Shown piece by piece: positions 46,989 through 54,380 of a stretch of 64,000 nucleotides of DNA. The DNA comes from Streptomyces sp. NBC_00659 (GTDB lineage: Bacteria; Actinomycetota; Actinomycetes; Streptomycetales; Streptomycetaceae). The position numbers and the translations under genes were made by a program. The notes beneath the pieces were generated by a model. The model was not told the DNA's origin. It saw only the letters and a list, made by a program, of their open reading frames with translations, and searched no databases. Where the stretch lies: positions 8,432,001 to 8,496,000 of the forward strand of contig NZ_CP109031.1 in the NCBI RefSeq assembly GCF_036226925.1. Direction: 5' to 3'. Position 1 is the first letter of the stretch. Each line of letters opens with the position of its first letter.

Positions 46989-48308
46989 TCAGTGGCCCAG
47001 CAGCGCCCTCAGCCCGGGTTGCAGGAGATCACCGTGAGCCCGTACGAGGTCGTCGCACAGGTCCCAGATGCGCTCGACGGGGAGAGCGGCGGCCGTCGCG
47101 GGGTCGGCCATCGCGGCGTGCCGGATGTGCCGCGGCTCGTTGTCGGTGGCGGCGCGGACCACCAGGTCGGTGACGGATACGTACGCGCTGTTCAGCGCGG
47201 CGCACTGCGGGGGCAGCGCGCCGACACGGGTCGGCTGCACCCCCAACGCGTCCGTCAGGCACGGGACTTCGACGACGCAGTCCGCCGGGAGGTTGTCGAT
47301 CAGGCCGCGGTTGGGCACATTGCCGTAGATCGTGCGGGGGGTGCCGGTGAGCGTGCTGTGGATGATCTGCGGGGCGTACTCCAAGGTGCCCTCGACGGGG
47401 AGGGGCACCCCGCAGGCCAGGGCCTCGCGGGTGCGCCGGTAGCTCGCGGCGTTCTCCTCGATGATGTCCAGATAGGCGCCCACCGGCAGCCTGAGCCGCT
47501 CGATCTCGCTGTCGTGGTGGAGGTACCACGGCACGTACTCCGAGGAGTGCTCGCTCGTCTCGGTGGGGTAGTGGCCGAGGCGGCGGTACATGTCCACGCG
47601 GACCCGGCGCAGCAGCCCGGGGTCCTTGGCGATGGCCTCGTCGAGGAGCGGGTACAGATCCTGGCCCGCGCGCTCGAAGCGCAGCACCCACGCCTGGTGG
47701 TTGACCCCGGCGGCCAGGTGGGTGACCTCCTCGAAGGGGACCCCGACGAGCTGGGCGAGGTCGTGCATCGTCCAGTGCACCGAGTGGCACAGGCCGGTGA
47801 CGCGCAGCTTCGGCGCGATGCGGCTCAGGTAGAGGACGTTCATCGCCATGGGGTTGGTGTAGTTCAACAGCAGGGCGTCCGGGCAGAGTTCGGCCATGTC
47901 GGAGGCGAGCGAGCGGAGCACCGGGAAGGTGCGCAGGGCCCGGAAGATGCCTCCGATGCCGAGGGTGTCACCGATGGTCTGGCGCAGTCCGTAGCGGGCG
48001 GGAACGGTGAAGTCGGTGCGCGTCGCGCGGTCCATGCCGACCTGGATGATGTTGATGACGAAGTCGGCGTCCTCCAGGGCCGCCCGTCGGTCGGGGTGCG
48101 CGGTGATGGCGGGCTCGGCGCCGCGTACGCCGGCGATGTGGCGGGCGGCGCCCTCGGCGGTGTCGAGCCGCTCCGGGTCGATGTCGTGCAACGCGATGCG
48201 CGCGTGCGCGAGTTCGGGGAACCTGAACAGGTCGGCCAGCAGTCCCTGGGTGAACACCACGCTCCCGGCTCCGATGAAGGCGATCTTCGGGGCGGTGACG
48301 TCGTTCAT
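46989..48308 (-). CDS. GH4-family glycosidase (alpha-galactosidase/6-phospho-glucosidase-like)
   Basis: The 439-residue protein has the NAD-binding start KIAFIGAGSVVFTQGLLADL, DADFVINIIQVGMDRATRTD, and the sugar/metal-site segments LLLNYTNPMAMNVLYLSRIA, GLCHSVHWTMHDL (Cys and His ligands) and AGVNHQAWVLRF. GH4 enzymes cleave by an unusual redox cycle using NAD+ and Mn2+. Specificity cannot be read from sequence; alpha-galactosides, alpha-glucosides and 6-phospho sugars are known. The ATG at 48308 overlaps the kinase stop as ATGA, and AGGAG precedes. Last gene of the operon 53335-46989. Confidence 0.88.
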   Translation of the reverse strand: MNDVTAPKIAFIGAGSVVFTQGLLADLFRFPELAHARIALHDIDPERLDTAEGAARHIAGVRGAEPAITAHPDRRAALEDADFVINIIQVGMDRATRTDFTVPARYGLRQTIGDTLGIGGIFRALRTFPVLRSLASDMAELCPDALLLNYTNPMAMNVLYLSRIAPKLRVTGLCHSVHWTMHDLAQLVGVPFEEVTHLAAGVNHQAWVLRFERAGQDLYPLLDEAIAKDPGLLRRVRVDMYRRLGHYPTETSEHSSEYVPWYLHHDSEIERLRLPVGAYLDIIEENAASYRRTREALACGVPLPVEGTLEYAPQIIHSTLTGTPRTIYGNVPNRGLIDNLPADCVVEVPCLTDALGVQPTRVGALPPQCAALNSAYVSVTDLVVRAATDNEPRHIRHAAMADPATAAALPVERIWDLCDDLVRAHGDLLQPGLRALLGH

Positions 48309-49291
48309 GAACGGCTCCTGGTCTCGTGGGTGCGGGGGGCTGGTGGAACTGCAGGGAGGTGCGCGCGGGCCGCGGCGAGGGCCTCGTCCCAAGTGGGCTG
48401 TGCCGCTGTACCGCCGTGTGCTCGGGTCGAGAGCGAACCGCAGGCCGCGGCCACCGTGAGCGCGGAGCGCAGGTCGAGGCCGCGCAGGGTCGCGGCGACG
48501 AACCCGGCGTCGAAGCTGTCGCCCGCGCCGACGGTGTCCACGGGGGCGACGGCCGTGGCCGGTGCGTGCGCGAGCCGCGTCCCGGTGTCGGCGAGGGCGC
48601 CGTTCGCGCCGTCCTTGACCACGACCGTCGGCCCCCGGCCGGCCAGGACGGCGGCAGCGGCGACCGGATCGGCTTCCCCGGACAGCGCCGACGCCTCGGC
48701 CGCGTTGGGCAACAGGAAATCGGTGAACTCCAGTACGGGGTCGATGAGTCGGTGGTCCCAGTGCCCGGCCGGGTCGTCATTCGTGTCGAGCGACGTCGTC
48801 GCGCCGGTCGCCCGGGCCAGGCCGAACACCGGGGCGAGGGACCGGGCCAGACGGGGCATCAGGAAGAACGAGGCCGCGTGCACATGCCGGGAGGCCGCTA
48901 TCAGGTCCCGCGGCACGTCCTCGGGACCGGTCTCGGTGAGACAGCCCTGCGCCGTCAGGATGGCCCGGTCCCCGTCCCCGGCCATGACGACGGCGGTGAG
49001 GGGTGTGGGCCGGACCGGGTCGGTGACCAGGAAGCCCACGTCGACACCGCGCCCGGCGAGCGCCTCGCGCACGAAGGCACCCGCGGGATCGTCACCCACC
49101 CGGCCCGCGAACGCGACCCGCAGCCCGAGCCGCGCGGCCCCGCACGCCATGATCGCGGCGGAGCCGCCGAGCACCAACCCGGCGTGCTCGACGAGCTGTT
49201 CGCGCTGCCCGAACTCCAGGGGGCCGCGCAACGGGCCGAGGACGACATCCGGATTGGCGTCGCCGACGACGAGGAGATCGAACGATTTCAT
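48305..49291 (-). CDS. PfkB-family sugar kinase
   Basis: The 328-residue protein has the ribokinase fold: LLVVGDANPDVVLGPLRGPL, VLGGSAAIMACGAARLGLRV (PfkB signature 1), LPNAAEASALSGEADPVAAA, and TVGAGDSFDAGFVAATLRGL with the anion hole and catalytic Asp. It should phosphorylate a monosaccharide released inside the cell. It overlaps the GH4 gene by 4 bases and follows the second permease by 6 bases, so it acts in the same pathway. Confidence 0.87.
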   Translation of the reverse strand: MKSFDLLVVGDANPDVVLGPLRGPLEFGQREQLVEHAGLVLGGSAAIMACGAARLGLRVAFAGRVGDDPAGAFVREALAGRGVDVGFLVTDPVRPTPLTAVVMAGDGDRAILTAQGCLTETGPEDVPRDLIAASRHVHAASFFLMPRLARSLAPVFGLARATGATTSLDTNDDPAGHWDHRLIDPVLEFTDFLLPNAAEASALSGEADPVAAAAVLAGRGPTVVVKDGANGALADTGTRLAHAPATAVAPVDTVGAGDSFDAGFVAATLRGLDLRSALTVAAACGSLSTRAHGGTAAQPTWDEALAAARAHLPAVPPAPRTHETRSRS

Positions 49292-49297
49292 GGTGGC

Positions 49298-50128
49298 CTA
49301 GCCCTTCAGACCGCTCGAAGTGAGCGACTGGACAAAGGTCTTCTGCGCGAGCAGGAACGCGACCAGGACGGGCAGCACGGTGATCACGTTGCCCGCCATC
49401 ACCGCCGACCACCGCGTGTGGTGCTGTCCCTGGAACGTCGTCAGACCGAGCTGCAAGGTGTACCGCGTGTCGTGGTTGATCGCGATGAGCGGCCAGGACA
49501 AGTCGTTCCAGGTGCTCAGGAAGGTCAGCACCGCGACGGTGGCCAGCGCGGGCCGGGCCAGCGGCAGCACGATCGAGAACAGCACCCGCAGCCGCGAACA
49601 CCCGTCGATCCAGGCCGCCTCCTCCATCTCCCTGGGCAGCGCGAGGAAGAACTGCCGGAACAGGAAGACCGCGAACGGGGTGACGAGCGAGGGCACGATC
49701 AGCGCGCCGAGCGTGTCGATGAGACCCAGCTCCTTCATCACCAGGAAGGTCGGGATCATCGTGAGCTGGAAGGGGATCACCATCGTCGCGAGCATCAGGG
49801 CGAGCAGGGTCCGTGACCCGGCGAACCGCATCCGCGCGAAGGCGTAGCCGCCGAGCGCTCCCAGCAGCAGGTTCGACAGGACGGCCGCGACCGCGACGAT
49901 CAGCGAATTGGCGAACCAGCGCGGGAACATCGCGTTCCCGAGCACATACCGGTAGCCGCCCAGGTCGATCCCCTTCGGCCACAGCGCGGGCGGGAACCGG
50001 TTGATCTCCGCGTCGGACATCACCGAGCTGAGCACCAGCCACACCAGCGGCAGCGCGAAGCACAGGGTCAGCGGCGCCAGCAGCAGGTGCCACGTGCTCG
50101 GCCTGCGGGAGGCCGCGGGTGAACTCAT
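49298..50128 (-). CDS. Carbohydrate ABC transporter permease (MalG-like)
   Basis: The 276-residue protein has six membrane helices and the EAA loop EEAAWIDGCSRLRVLFSIVL. FRQFFLALPREMEEAAW and LIAINHDTRYTLQLGLTTFQ are typical of MalG-type permeases. It forms the channel with the permease upstream. The ATG at 50128 overlaps that gene's stop as ATGA, with AAGGAG 7 bases upstream. No ATPase gene is present, so a shared MsiK-type ATPase is expected. Confidence 0.88.
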   Translation of the reverse strand: MSSPAASRRPSTWHLLLAPLTLCFALPLVWLVLSSVMSDAEINRFPPALWPKGIDLGGYRYVLGNAMFPRWFANSLIVAVAAVLSNLLLGALGGYAFARMRFAGSRTLLALMLATMVIPFQLTMIPTFLVMKELGLIDTLGALIVPSLVTPFAVFLFRQFFLALPREMEEAAWIDGCSRLRVLFSIVLPLARPALATVAVLTFLSTWNDLSWPLIAINHDTRYTLQLGLTTFQGQHHTRWSAVMAGNVITVLPVLVAFLLAQKTFVQSLTSSGLKG

Positions 50129-51087
50129 CGGACCACTCCTTCGGTACGTTCCTGCCATCGCCGCAGAAGCCGCAGCGCCCCGCCCGCCACCAGCAGGGCG
50201 ACCGCGAGGACGTACGCCGCGGCGGCCCCGTAGCCCGCCGTGAACGTCTGGAACGCCTGCTGCCAGACGAAGTAGACGACCACGCCGGTCGAGCCGAGGG
50301 GGCCGCCCTTCGTCGTCACATAGATCAGGTCGAAGACCTGGAGTGCCGTGATCAGCTGCCACAGCAGCAGGAACACGGTGACCGGGGTGAGGGTCGGCAG
50401 GACGATGTGGCGCAGCACCCGCACGCGGCCCGCCCCGTCGATCCGCGCGGCTTCCACCAGTTCGGGCGGCACGTCCTGCAGCGCGGCCAGATAGACGACG
50501 ACGCAGAATCCGACACCGCTCCACAGCGAGATGAGTACCAGCAGATAGATCGCCTGGTCGGGGTCGGTGAGAAAGCCCTGCGGGGACAGCCCGAGCTTGT
50601 GCAGCAGGGAGTTCGCGACACCGAACTCGGGATCGAGGATGAATGAGAACAGCACGCCCTGCGCGGTCGCCGAGACCACGAACGGAACGAAGACGAGCGT
50701 GCGGTAGAGGCCGATGAACTGGATACGGCGGTTCAGCGCCAGGGCCAGCATCAGCCCGCCGAACAGGCTGAGCGGCACGTAGAGGGCGGCGTACAGCAGG
50801 GTGTTGCCCACGGCCGTACGGAAGTTGGGGTCCTGGGCCAGGGCCCGGTAGTTGTCGAGGCCGACCCAGCGGCCCGGGGTGACCAGGTCGTCGGCCCGGA
50901 ACGAGAGCAGCAGCGACCAGACGACGGGCACGATGCTCAGACCGAGGATCACGACGACCGCCGGACCGATGAAGGCCCAGGCGGTGGCGGTCTCCCGACG
51001 GCCGCGGCGGCGGGCGGCGCGCCGTGCGGCGGCCGGGGTCACCGCGGGGCCCGGAACGACGGTGATGGCACGGGGAAGGGTGGACAT
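50125..51087 (-). CDS. Carbohydrate ABC transporter permease (MalF-like)
   Basis: The 320-residue protein has an Arg-rich N-terminus then six helices, starting ATAWAFIGPAVVVILGLSIV. The EAA loop reads VEAARIDGAGRVRVLRHIVL. It pairs with the MalG-like permease. The ATG at 51087 follows AAGGAGG by about 7 bases. The gap to the upstream substrate-binding gene (90 bases) contains a 21-bp tandem repeat. Confidence 0.88.
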   Translation of the reverse strand: MSTLPRAITVVPGPAVTPAAARRAARRRGRRETATAWAFIGPAVVVILGLSIVPVVWSLLLSFRADDLVTPGRWVGLDNYRALAQDPNFRTAVGNTLLYAALYVPLSLFGGLMLALALNRRIQFIGLYRTLVFVPFVVSATAQGVLFSFILDPEFGVANSLLHKLGLSPQGFLTDPDQAIYLLVLISLWSGVGFCVVVYLAALQDVPPELVEAARIDGAGRVRVLRHIVLPTLTPVTVFLLLWQLITALQVFDLIYVTTKGGPLGSTGVVVYFVWQQAFQTFTAGYGAAAAYVLAVALLVAGGALRLLRRWQERTEGVVR

Positions 51088-51131
51088 GACGGCCTCCTTC
51101 AGCCGGAAGTCGGCTGGGAACGTCTGAAGTC

Positions 51132-51194
51132 GAGGTGACCGGGGGACGAGCCGAGGTACACCGGGGACGAGCCGAGGTCACCGGGGGATGAGCA
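51132..51194. repeat. Three 21-bp tandem repeats at the end of the binding-protein gene
   Basis: GAGGTGACCGGGGGACGAGC-like units begin at 51132, 51153 and 51174. The third copy contains the stop codon of the binding-protein gene. The repeats fill most of the gap to the first permease gene. Confidence 0.65.
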
Positions 51195-52470
51195 GGGCCG
51201 CGTCGGCCGTGTCGGCGCACCGGCGGACGGCGTGGGCGGGGGAGTCCTTGCCGAGCAGGACCGAGACGATCGCCTCGCCGAGGGCCTGGGAGATCTGCGG
51301 ATAGGCGGCGTGCACGGGCCGGACCCGGGCGGAGTCCAGCGTGTCGGTGAACACGCCGAGTCCGGTGGTCGTCCGCGCGTGCTCGCGCCACTCCGGACGC
51401 CGGGCGGTGGCCGAGCCGAGCGGGAGACTGCCCGCCGCGAGGTCCCAGCGCGCGTCCTGGGCCGGCCGGATCATCCAGCGCACGAACTCGACGGCCGCCC
51501 GGGAACGGGCGGAACCGTTGTCGAAGACGGTCCAGGTGTCCGGCCCGGAGATGGTGACGGGCCTGCCGCTGTACGTCGGGAGCGGGACGACGCCGTAGTC
51601 GACCTTGGCGGTGATGACGTCCGGAAGCTGCCAGGGTCCCGTCGCCACCATCGCCATCCGGCCGCTCAGGAACACCTGGTACATCTGCTCGCTGCCGGGC
51701 TTCGGATCGACGTAGACGCTTCTGTCGTGGGCCAGTCGGGCGAGGGTCGACAGAGCCTGGGCGCCCTGCTCGGCGAAGCCGACCCTCCCGCCGTCGGCGG
51801 CGATCACCTCGCCGCCGAGGTCCCAGATCATCGGCCACAGCCGCCAGACCGTGTCCTCGTCGCCCGTGCCCGGCCAGCCCGTGCCGAACGTCCCGCGCCC
51901 GGAGTCGGTGAGTCGGCGCGCGGTGTCGGTGAACTCGTCCCAGCTCCACCCCGCCTTCGGGAAGGGGACCCCGGCCTGGCGGAACAGCTTCTTGTTGTAG
52001 ACGACGGCCAGCGAGTCGAGCACCGCCGGCGCGGCGCGCACCCTGCCGTTGACGGTGACCGCGTCCCGTACCGGCGCCCAGAAGGACTCCCACGGCGGGG
52101 TGCCCTCGTGCAGCGCGGACGTGAGGTCGACGACCCGGGGGCTGCGGGCGACGCTCGCCAGGTCCGAGCCGAAGATGTAGGCGATGTCGGGGTACGAGCC
52201 GGCGGCGAGCGCGGCCGTCACCTTCTGGAGCATGGCGTCGGCCACCACCCCGCCGCCCGAACTGTCCACGCGGATGCGTGGATGGGTGCGGTTGAACTCG
52301 GCCACCAGCGACTCCACGGCCTTCCTGGCCGTGTCGTTCTGACCGTGCCACAGTTCGACGGTCACCCTGCCGTCGGTGCCGACACCGTCCGAGGGGCCGC
52401 CGCAGCCTGCCAGTGCCCCGGCGGCGGCCGCGCCCAGGAACAGCCGGCGCCGCGCGATCACGCGTGTCAT
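51178..52470 (-). CDS. Sugar-binding lipoprotein of ABC transporter
   Basis: The 430-residue family-1 solute-binding protein has a Tat/lipoprotein-type leader (VIARRRLFLGAAAAGALAGC; twin Arg, lipobox LAGC), then VTVELWHGQNDTARKAVESL, AGSYPDIAYIFGSDLASVAR, LAVVYNKKLFRQAGVPFPKA and MVATGPWQLPDVITAKVDYG. It captures an oligosaccharide outside the membrane. The ATG at 52470 follows GAGGAGG by 5 bases. It begins 10 bases downstream of the GH114 stop, so the two are co-transcribed. Confidence 0.88.
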   Translation of the reverse strand: MTRVIARRRLFLGAAAAGALAGCGGPSDGVGTDGRVTVELWHGQNDTARKAVESLVAEFNRTHPRIRVDSSGGGVVADAMLQKVTAALAAGSYPDIAYIFGSDLASVARSPRVVDLTSALHEGTPPWESFWAPVRDAVTVNGRVRAAPAVLDSLAVVYNKKLFRQAGVPFPKAGWSWDEFTDTARRLTDSGRGTFGTGWPGTGDEDTVWRLWPMIWDLGGEVIAADGGRVGFAEQGAQALSTLARLAHDRSVYVDPKPGSEQMYQVFLSGRMAMVATGPWQLPDVITAKVDYGVVPLPTYSGRPVTISGPDTWTVFDNGSARSRAAVEFVRWMIRPAQDARWDLAAGSLPLGSATARRPEWREHARTTTGLGVFTDTLDSARVRPVHAAYPQISQALGEAIVSVLLGKDSPAHAVRRCADTADAALLIPR

Positions 52471-52480
52471 CCCGGCCTCC

Positions 52481-53335
52481 TCAGCGCGTTTCGCGGACAT
52501 AGTCCGCGCTGCCGGGTGTCGAGACCTTCACGTCCCGGCGCACGATGCTCAGCCGGTCGCCGAAGGCCGAACGGGCCTTGCGCAGACCGCTGTCGGTGTA
52601 CTCGACGACCACCACCCGGTCGTGGAAGGCCTTCGCGTACTCGCCGCACTCGTCGTACTCGCCGCACTCCTCCGCCACCGCGAAGTCGAGCCCGGTCCGC
52701 GATCCGACTCCCGCCAGTTCGGCGGTGTTCTTCTGCCCGATCGCCAGATGCCGGGCGTGCGCGTGCCGCGAGAGCAGGGTGATGAACGCGGTGGCGTCCT
52801 CCGAGCTCAGCAGTTTCCGCGAGCGGGTGTAGCTGTCGTAGTTGTCGGGCTCGACGGCGTCGAATCCCTTGTCGGCGCAGTCGTCGATCCACTTCTCGAC
52901 CCGCGCGGCCACCCGTCGGCGCTTGTCCGGCGTCCGGATGTCCAGCAGAGCCTCGTTCCAGTCCCGGTCGACGACGACCTTGCCGTCCGCGTCCCGCAGC
53001 AGCAGGTCGGCGGGCCACTGTCCGCGTTCCTCGGGCTGGGCCTGGAAGGCGTTGACGTAGCAGATGTTGTACAGGCCGCGGGCGGGGGAGGACGAGCGGT
53101 CGCGGCTGACGATGCGGACGTCGGCGGCCGGGGGGTAGGCGCCGCCGATCTGGTAGTCGAACCCCGTGTGGAGCGGGGGGAGTTCGACGGAGGTCGCTGT
53201 CCGGCCGGGGCGGGGCGCCGGTTTCGCCGAGGCGCTCGTGTCCGTGCCCGCGTCGCAGCCCGCGAGCGTCAGAAGAAGACCGGCGAGGGCCGTGACCGGA
53301 ACTCCGGCGCGGAGAACACGTTTGACGGGGGGCAT
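52481..53335 (-). CDS. GH114-like endo-alpha-1,4-polygalactosaminidase lipoprotein
   Basis: The 284-residue lipoprotein (lipobox LTLAGC) has the GH114/TM1410-type barrel: TGFDYQIGGAYPPAADVRIV, RGLYNICYVNAFQAQPEERG, WPADLLLRDADGKVVVDRDW, NEALLDIRTPDKRRRVAARV, and DKGFDAVEPDNYDSYTRSRK with the likely catalytic acidic pair. EECGEYDECGEYAKAF follows near the C-terminus. Members cleave alpha-1,4-linked galactosamine polymers such as fungal galactosaminogalactan or bacterial Pel. The ATG at 53335 follows GGTGGAG by 5 bases. First gene of the sugar operon. Confidence 0.8.
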   Translation of the reverse strand: MPPVKRVLRAGVPVTALAGLLLTLAGCDAGTDTSASAKPAPRPGRTATSVELPPLHTGFDYQIGGAYPPAADVRIVSRDRSSSPARGLYNICYVNAFQAQPEERGQWPADLLLRDADGKVVVDRDWNEALLDIRTPDKRRRVAARVEKWIDDCADKGFDAVEPDNYDSYTRSRKLLSSEDATAFITLLSRHAHARHLAIGQKNTAELAGVGSRTGLDFAVAEECGEYDECGEYAKAFHDRVVVVEYTDSGLRKARSAFGDRLSIVRRDVKVSTPGSADYVRETR

Positions 53336-53503
53336 GTCCGCTCCACCAATCGCGAGTGCGTCCCCGCCTCGGACGCTTCGAGCGATCCTGGCGACTTTGG
53401 CCGGACTTGAACCTGGTCCGTTACCGGCTGGGCGCACCTCTGCGTGCCGGGTCGCACCACGGCACTCAGAGGATGAAATCGCGCAGGCCCGACTTCGTCA
53501 AGT

Positions 53504-53546: not shown

Positions 53547-54380
53547 TCAGTGCGGACCGGCCGCCGTCCACTCCGTCCCGCACGGGCCCGCGCCCTCGTT
53601 CTCGGGCAGGGCCACGGCTTCACCGTCCATCGTCAGCGTGCGGTAGAAGCCGCCGATGCGCCGGGTGGAGCGGCCGACGTAGTGGCCGATGAAGGACCGG
53701 CGGAAACGGTCACGGCTGCGGTTGGGGCCGGAGCCGTGGACCAGGCTGCCGTTGAAGAACAGGACGTCCCCCGGTTCCATGTCGACGGGCACGGCGGTCA
53801 GACCGGCAGGCGGCGGTATGTACTCGCGGGCGAAGGACAGCGCCGGGTCCGCCTCGTGCGGGCAGAACAGGTCCATCCGATGGGTGCCCGGCACGACCTC
53901 CAGGCCGCCGTTCTCACGGTCGATGACATCGCAGGCGGTCCACGCGGCCACACAGGTGCCGGGCTCGACGCGCAGATAGAAGTTGTCCTGGTGCAACGCC
54001 TGGCCGCGGGCTCCGGGCGGTTTGAAGTAGAACATGCTCTGGGCGGCCAGCACCTCTTCCCCCAACAGGATCTCCAGGACGTCCCGCACCCGCGGGTCGA
54101 GCAGCAGACGCAGCGACAGGGCGTTGACGCGGTGCGGGTGCATGAAGCGGGGGAAGACGTGCAGCGGGTCGGCCGGGGCGCCGGTTCCGACGCCGCCGGA
54201 CTCCGTGCCGCCGGTCCTGGGGGCCCGGGGTTCGAAGTGCCCGGGGACCGGGCCGGCCTCGTGCAGCGCCGCGAACTCCGCGCACAGCGTGTCGATCTCG
54301 TCCGGGGCGAACAGCCCGCGCCGCACCACGAAGCCGTCCTGCTCGAACCGGCCGAGCCCGCTCCTGTCCGTGACTGCCAT
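53547..54380 (-). CDS. Phytanoyl-CoA dioxygenase-family protein
   Basis: The 277-residue protein starts GRFEQDGFVVRRGLFAPDEI and carries the Fe(II)/2-oxoglutarate motifs: HxD in ALHQDNFYLRVEPG and the distal His in FFNGSLVHGSGPNRSRDRFR, with RRSFIGHYV after it. PhyH-family enzymes hydroxylate aliphatic substrates, including ectoine or secondary metabolites. Substrate unknown. The ATG at 54380 follows GAGGGGA by 7 bases; a longer frame lacks homology. Confidence 0.86.
   Translation of the reverse strand: MAVTDRSGLGRFEQDGFVVRRGLFAPDEIDTLCAEFAALHEAGPVPGHFEPRAPRTGGTESGGVGTGAPADPLHVFPRFMHPHRVNALSLRLLLDPRVRDVLEILLGEEVLAAQSMFYFKPPGARGQALHQDNFYLRVEPGTCVAAWTACDVIDRENGGLEVVPGTHRMDLFCPHEADPALSFAREYIPPPAGLTAVPVDMEPGDVLFFNGSLVHGSGPNRSRDRFRRSFIGHYVGRSTRRIGGFYRTLTMDGEAVALPENEGAGPCGTEWTAAGPH

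Follow-up and report, generated by a model that had tools for sequence, protein, structure and literature searches.

The 64,000-nucleotide stretch of the Streptomyces sp. NBC_00659 genome analysed here (NZ_CP109031.1, positions 8,432,001-8,496,000; hereafter the window) carries six genes on its minus strand (46989-53335) that, judging from their sequences, probably form an operon for the utilisation of a galactosamine polymer. They code for a lipoprotein of glycoside hydrolase family 114 (GH114), the sugar-binding lipoprotein and two permeases of an ATP-binding cassette (ABC) importer, a PfkB-family sugar kinase and a GH4 glycosidase, and they are preceded by a structured leader RNA, which is the most surprising part of the locus. 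The initial annotation had tentatively assigned to these genes the import and degradation of alpha-1,4-galactosaminogalactan or a Pel-like polymer. The six genes had been located exactly, and each product exceeds its Pfam cut-off; of the three 4-base overlaps counted, two exist (permease 1/permease 2 and PfkB/GH4), the remaining joints being gaps of 6, 10 and 90 bases. The galactosamine reading itself has gained support, since the catalytic residues of GH114 are retained throughout the related loci, the top fold match of this protein is Ega3, and GH4 is found among homologues of the galactosamine-6-phosphate/tagatose pathway in many genera.

The GH114 protein (52481-53335, minus strand) matches Pfam PF03537 with 177.3 bits (cut-off 27), and a sequence search of the PDB retrieves Ega3 of Aspergillus fumigatus with an E value of 4.7e-14. 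When its AlphaFold model (predicted local distance difference test score 86.5) is compared with known folds, the top match is again Ega3 (6oj1, E 1.5e-15), followed by GH191 and the GH166 domain of PelA. According to PMC12054363, the nucleophile and acid/base pair is D189/E247 in Ega3 and D157/E225 in F. solani. D164 and E222 of the window protein align with the Ega3 pair at the same spacing of 58, and the catalytic D and E are kept in all 63 GH114 proteins (59 distinct) of related loci; the loss of active residues, which the initial annotation had named as a point that would speak against it, was thus not found. From sequence and model we predict that the protein is an endo-alpha-1,4-galactosaminidase, i.e. 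that it cuts an alpha-1,4-galactosamine polymer internally. It has a lipobox. Since a crude pattern detects a lipobox in only 14 of the 63 related proteins, surface anchoring is not general.

To place the genes in the genus, 199 genomes were surveyed for GH114 (E<=1e-10) and GH4 (E<=1e-130). As the initial annotation had cautioned, GH114 is widespread in Streptomyces (182 of 199 genomes); its presence alone therefore proves little, and it is the linkage that counts. GH4 occurs in 25 genomes, and in 18 of these a GH114 gene lies within ~7 kb of it, with flanking genes that differ between genomes. This linkage is not due to chance. What recurs is the linkage and not a fixed order of the six genes: PfkB is not next to GH4 in G032 and G118, and GH114 has a convergent orientation in G032 and a divergent one in G100. 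Among the GH4 genomes without a nearby GH114 gene, the locus is cut by a contig end in G168, GH4 is a 53% paralogue in G045, and in G073 the locus is broken beside an open reading frame that looks transposase-like by eye. Galactosamine-substituted wall polymers occur in actinomycetes, and the near-ubiquity of GH114 would suit an operon that recycles such polymers of the cell itself instead of a foreign matrix; we consider this quite improbable, because GH4 is patchy and its surroundings vary, as expected of an acquired catabolic module.

The gene neighbourhoods outside the genus provide a second line of evidence. When 394 genomes from the class were searched, GH4 (E<=1e-120) was detected in 22 genomes from 11 genera. 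In the 18 loci outside the genus, including L098, which lacks the clade signature described below, genes for SIS or AgaS proteins (16), class II aldolases (16) and DeoR regulators (17) are found, together with a PfkB homologue in ten and a NagK/BadF-type kinase in four. We also examined 80 named loci, the best 80 of 592 relatives, from Streptomyces, Embleya, Nonomuraea, Kribbella, Amycolatopsis, Lentzea, Actinoplanes relatives, Mycolicibacterium and others; five of them repeat loci of other sets. Here GH114 is encoded in 35, SIS or AgaS in 41 and either of the two in 65; aldolase genes are present in 36, KbaZ in ten, TagK-like genes in 19, AgaR-like DeoR in 51, PfkB in 51 and the NagK/BadF-type kinase in nine. 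PfkB never occurs together with the NagK/BadF-type kinase in these 80 loci, nor SIS with AgaS, which is what enzymes that substitute for each other at a single step should show. Elsewhere, PfkB homologues adjoin SIS and a separate tagatose-6-phosphate-kinase-like gene. A single stretch of L081 comprises GH114, GH4, SIS, a 1-phosphofructokinase/tagatose-6-phosphate-kinase-like gene and an aldolase, and in L085 an AgaZ/GatZ equivalog (638.6 bits, cut-off 568.8) and an AgaS-family protein (424 bits, below the cut-off of 529) are encoded beside GH4. As controls we used all 26 listed GH4 matches outside the clade, mostly other GH4 types by motif and two of them on contigs shorter than 5 kb. They show no GH114, AgaS or aldolase gene, one SIS gene (29%) and two KbaZ genes.

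In the window genome, SIS, class II aldolase and AgaR-like DeoR homologues are encoded together at 1.531-1.534 Mb and a FruK/TagK-type kinase at 4.539 Mb; the SIS type is present in 186 of the 199 genus genomes (E<=1e-30). E. coli agaS mutants are blocked in galactosamine use, according to PMC3668189. A DeoR operator shared between the operon and the SIS-aldolase locus was sought and rejected, as none of the 15 commonest motif words was found in the four core intergenic regions.

Several observations weigh against a dedicated galactosamine operon. The importer genes, PfkB and GH4 occur without GH114 at the site in four genomes (G036, G048, G096 and G109), and GH114 is present in only four of the 18 loci outside the genus. 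The 27 loci of the genus (the 25 and two more drawn from the class, counted within the stretches fetched) include eight with an AgaR-like DeoR gene, three with a linked SIS gene and two with a linked aldolase gene, and both are unlinked in the window genome. DeoR and PfkB are also encoded in eight and 11 of the 26 control loci and are therefore weak evidence as neighbours. According to PMC12054363, none of the bacterial GH114 proteins tried was soluble and folded, so that assays may be hard; one bacterial GH114 has been partly characterised from a native Pseudomonas preparation. The open-licence literature, which excludes most subscription papers, yielded no paper on such an operon (by titles and the beginnings of abstracts), none on the leader RNA and, a further point on the negative side, no report of a GH4 alpha-galactosaminidase. 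Finally, the window GH4 (46989-48308, minus strand) is matched by the NCBI model NF011657 for MelA-type alpha-galactosidases with 572.8 bits (cut-off 486) and is 43% identical to E. coli MelA.

These last matches, and a CHS motif as in MelA, would fit a plain alpha-galactosidase whose role is to remove galactose from imported fragments of galactosaminogalactan or from plant galactosides, with GH114 linked to it through a mixed polymer; galactosaminogalactan contains galactose, as stated in PMC3213105. The GH4 sequence, however, departs from MelA at conserved motif positions. Both GH4 domains (PF02056/PF11975) are present, 49 of the 50 listed fold matches are GH4-type entries, and GAGS 13-16, C174 and H204, which presumably serve as the nicotinamide adenine dinucleotide (NAD) and metal motifs, are invariant in 11 of 11 compared sequences. 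Where E. coli MelA has CHSVQGT and NHMAF, the window protein has CHSVHWT (174-180) and NHQAW (203-207), i.e. W179 in place of a glycine and Q205 in place of a methionine. CHSxxWT is found in 116 of 151 GH4 sequences (111 of 146 distinct), all 116 of which have NHQ[AS]W, and these sequences form one clade with a support of 0.89 and E. coli MelA outside. The neighbours of the clade are amino-sugar homologues, and queries with E. coli GalK and GalT found no galK or galT relatives in 124 loci (119 distinct). We therefore regard a plain alpha-galactosidase as having only a slim chance of being correct. With GH114 and homologues of galactosamine catabolism as neighbours and galK/galT not found, the sequence evidence points to an alpha-galactosaminidase.

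GH4 enzymes coordinate the sugar to their metal through O2 and O3, and a free amine at C2 is therefore chemically conceivable; an acetamido group would disturb this binding. GH109 provides an example of NAD-type chemistry on alpha-linked N-acetylgalactosamine (GalNAc), and GH4 could by analogy free GalNAc, with deacetylation left to housekeeping NagA after phosphorylation. The NagA of S. coelicolor accepts GalNAc-6-phosphate, according to PMC12680351. A NagA-like deacetylase gene, however, was found in only one of the 80 named loci, none of the 26 control loci and none of the 18 loci outside the genus, and fungal GH114 and GH166 are described in PMC12054363 as acting on more deacetylated chains. 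An N-acetylated substrate appears unlikely to us.

Some of the neighbourhoods also contain other GH4 types and possible hydrolases. A second GH4 type (CHAVCDT or CHSVCDT, with NHQSF) is encoded in L081 (11784-13097), L082 (6909-8258), L159, L161, L166, L170 and L171, mostly from Nonomuraea and related genera, and these loci hold a DeoR gene as well. A more distant GH4 (36-37% identity, CHSVHYT) in L104 (9488-10795) and L110 (8568-9875) stands beside KbaZ and PfkB homologues and is possibly another galactosamine-linked group; since these near relatives, which belong to the controls, adjoin KbaZ, the connection to amino sugars may extend past the clade. DUF4832/DUF4874 proteins, encoded beside a GH4-DeoR pair in L098 (9984-14344), may hydrolyse a related polymer. 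Two GH4-clade loci without GH114, L089 (10375-11721) and L093 (3408-4838), encode right-handed beta-helix proteins whose N-termini are signal-like and which could be alternative polymer-cutting enzymes.

The leader RNA was discovered by a motif scan of 28 upstream regions, in which the same long words recurred in up to 27. It is an element of ~110 bases between promoter and start codon, located in the window at 53340-53449 (minus strand; core 53362-53432) and matched by the covariance model with 95.6 bits. The predicted promoter (53473-53501, minus strand) consists of a -35 box TTGACG (53501-53496), a 17-base spacer and a -10 box TTTCAT (53478-53473); the pair TTGAC and TTTACT/TTTCAT recurs at the same spacing in most Streptomyces-type upstream regions, and is not seen in L158 or the unrelated rows. 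An alignment of 67 copies (MAFFT, alignment A3) revealed a three-way junction composed of P1 with a CCC/GGG extension, P2 with a variable hairpin P3, and P4 with a hairpin P4b. In this alignment 97.3% of the cells pair, and seven pairs change on both sides, which was matched in 3 of 500 shuffles. The number of two-sided cells is 41, compared with 10.3+-3.6 in shuffled alignments and at most 18 when the structure is slid. P2 and the base of P4 show no two-sided change and are uninformative either way. In the model-fitted alignment A6, which favours the model, there are 51 such cells (10.9+-3.4 expected from shuffling), and two-sided changes affect each of the five outer P1 pairs. The hairpins are more stable than their own shuffled mean in 61 of 67 copies for P4b and 51 of 67 for P3, a few P3 hairpins having been mis-cut by the pattern. 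The junction nucleotides are near-invariant, and the hairpin loops vary in sequence and length.

When folded without constraints, the copies of the window, L053, L158 (Kribbella) and L090 (another family) adopt the same three-way junction; L175 does not, and the z-scores of the folded copies range from -0.5 to -2.9. In the case of the window's 148-base leader, another fold comes out best. No match to Rfam 15 was obtained in the window stretch (E<=5; gathering) or in ten further loci (E<=1), in searches run without a positive control.

Model R1 detects 50 copies of the RNA in 35 of the 199 genus genomes. Of these copies, 43 precede a GH114 match by 5-194 bases and five the binding-protein operon; one is at a contig end and one precedes a GH4 remnant. 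The window genome has two copies, one before each of its GH114 genes. The RNA does not accompany every GH114 gene: of the 30 best GH114 matches, a strong copy is present at 14 and a short remnant at one (L009, 26.7 bits), while the other 15 show nothing above 20 bits. The named set comprises 35 copies, 27 of which precede GH114, five the binding protein and three a TagK-like gene (L168, L175 and L177); the latter are Micromonosporaceae-type loci, and the L177 copy, with an E value of 1e-4, lies outside the training set. A further 28 copies come from the other fetched set, 23 before GH114 and five before the binding protein. As chance matches we left out four of 39 in the named set (<=20.9 bits) and six of 34 in the other set (<=19.6 bits). 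The copy of L090 was kept at 19.4 bits because it directly precedes a GH114 gene and folds alike; it is diverged, its score alone is not significant, and its GH114 is 23% identical to that of the window. In class-wide draws clear scores are confined to the genus, and the named loci extend the RNA to Kribbella, Nonomuraea, Amycolatopsis, Embleya, Actinacidiphila and Actinoplanes relatives. Seven further matches (L248-L254, 21.6-30.4 bits) have no GH114 or galactosamine gene nearby and were dismissed as chance. Where the RNA stands some way before the binding-protein gene, some loci show short open reading frames that start downstream of it, and in L062 a signal peptide resembling that of GH114 was recognised by eye; GH114 may have been lost there.

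Two of these copies deserve a separate mention. The second GH114 gene of the window genome lies outside the window on the same single 9.66 Mb contig (G000:C1:1396393-1397154; L074:8388-9203), with its leader at G000:C1:1397214-1397327 and without an ABC operon. In G133 (L246:3728-4168, minus strand) the RNA precedes the GH4 remnant, which covers residues 350-437 at 68% identity and is a relic of a lost operon.

From the sequence data, the leader RNA may be a riboswitch for a metabolite of the galactosamine pathway. Such a metabolite is the natural ligand candidate, because the same core precedes three unrelated genes of one pathway, namely GH114, the ABC operon and the TagK-like gene. With the ribosome site defined as the first occurrence of GGAG, GAGG or GGGG at least 14 bases past the core, the window has a GGAG 17 bases past it, and 66 of the 67 tails have their site at 16-20 bases; L080, which departs from this range, is a mis-parsed repeat, and a 68th tail without a site was dropped. 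This spacing suggests control of translation start. We also looked for the switch itself. A conserved anti-ribosome-site pairing that involves the 3' strand of P1 was not established (39 of 67 copies; 200 shuffles give 35.3 on average and at most 45), nor was an opening of the ribosome site by the aptamer fold: the mean unpaired fraction is 0.26 in the free and 0.28 in the constrained leaders, eight of 60 becoming more open and four more closed. In 39 of the 60 parsed leaders, the aptamer fold is no more than 3 kcal above the best fold; three constraints (L055, L057 and L150) are probably misplaced.

Since no conserved pairing masks the ribosome site, its accessibility does not change systematically and no ligand is known, the RNA might instead be a protein-binding or stability element, e.g. 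an antiterminator target. We regard this as somewhat doubtful. In ANTAR targets the loops are the conserved part, whereas here the junction is near-invariant and the loops vary, so that an ANTAR target was set aside; moreover, the same core stands before three non-homologous genes. The full proposal is that the leader RNA represents a new riboswitch class which senses galactosamine, galactosamine-6-phosphate or another pathway metabolite and coordinates a GH114/ABC/GH4 regulon, and that GH4 is the first alpha-galactosaminidase of its family. We put it forward tentatively, as a serious possibility that falls short of an expectation.

Combining the above, we infer the substrates, the sugar and its acetylation state, the natural polymer, the direction of regulation and the RNA ligand from what the sequence provides directly, i.e. 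the gene families, their recurrent linkage, the catalytic residues and a covarying RNA with its placement. The transcript would begin with the structured leader RNA, which most likely tunes expression to a pathway metabolite. Outside the cell, the GH114 lipoprotein would cleave an alpha-1,4-linked galactosamine polymer. The resulting oligosaccharides would be bound by the SBP_bac_1 lipoprotein (51178-52470, minus strand), a predicted galactosamine-oligosaccharide receptor by its Pfam family and its identical position in related loci, and taken up through permease 1 (50125-51087, minus strand) and permease 2 (49298-50128, minus strand). Both permeases are Pfam-assigned and kept in related loci, with UgpA and UgpE, respectively, as top NCBIfam matches below cut-off; the start of the binding protein is our choice, an alternative in-frame ATG being present at 52500. 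The ATPase would be supplied from elsewhere, as is common for such importers. Inside the cell, GH4 is predicted to act as an exo-alpha-galactosaminidase that releases galactosamine units, and the PfkB-family protein (48305-49291, minus strand; PF00294, 165 bits), a putative galactosamine kinase, would form galactosamine-6-phosphate. The SIS deaminase/isomerase, a kinase of the tagatose-6-phosphate/1-phosphofructokinase type and the class II aldolase could then yield triose phosphates.

Immediately upstream of the operon lies a gene for a PhyH-family dioxygenase (53547-54380, minus strand). We considered it as an operon member and rejected it: a homologue (73-77%) is found near the operon in G128 (L050) and L079, and none was called in G024 and G095 (L048 and L049).

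Galactosamine polymers hold together the biofilms of Aspergillus and of Pel-making bacteria, and there is research interest in the enzymes that cleave them as a means of dispersing biofilms. If our reading is correct, the gene set illustrates how such polymers can be recycled in soil, provides sequence candidates for the Streptomyces galactosaminidase activity of 1975 and adds an amino-sugar activity to GH4. The leader RNA would then be a new regulatory RNA class with a short list of candidate ligands that can be tested, and a practical marker for further galactosamine genes.

Parts of the proposed system resemble known ones. With Ega3 (PDB 6oj1/6ojb) the window GH114 shares the fold and both catalytic acids; in contrast to the fungal enzyme, to which it is ~24% identical in the structural match, it is a bacterial lipoprotein encoded within an uptake operon. 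A galactosaminidase activity from Streptomyces griseus (Reissig 1975, cited in PMC12054363 and PMC12911393) is the same as the predicted one and stems from the same genus, but no sequence is known for that enzyme. GH4 falls into the same NCBIfam subfamily as E. coli MelA and keeps the conserved GH4 motifs, whereas the motif strips and gene neighbours of its clade differ. The glmS ribozyme and other RNAs that sense sugar phosphates are likewise 5' leader RNAs linked to amino-sugar phosphate metabolism, whereas the RNA of the window has no match to any Rfam family. The aga/gam system of E. coli (AgaR, AgaS, KbaY and KbaZ) has a homologous repressor, isomerase and aldolase, which are encoded beside GH4 in the window clade, although the AgaS counterpart in the window genome is a short SIS protein. 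While E. coli takes up its substrate by a phosphotransferase system, the window operon would combine polymer hydrolysis, ABC uptake, a separate kinase and GH4.

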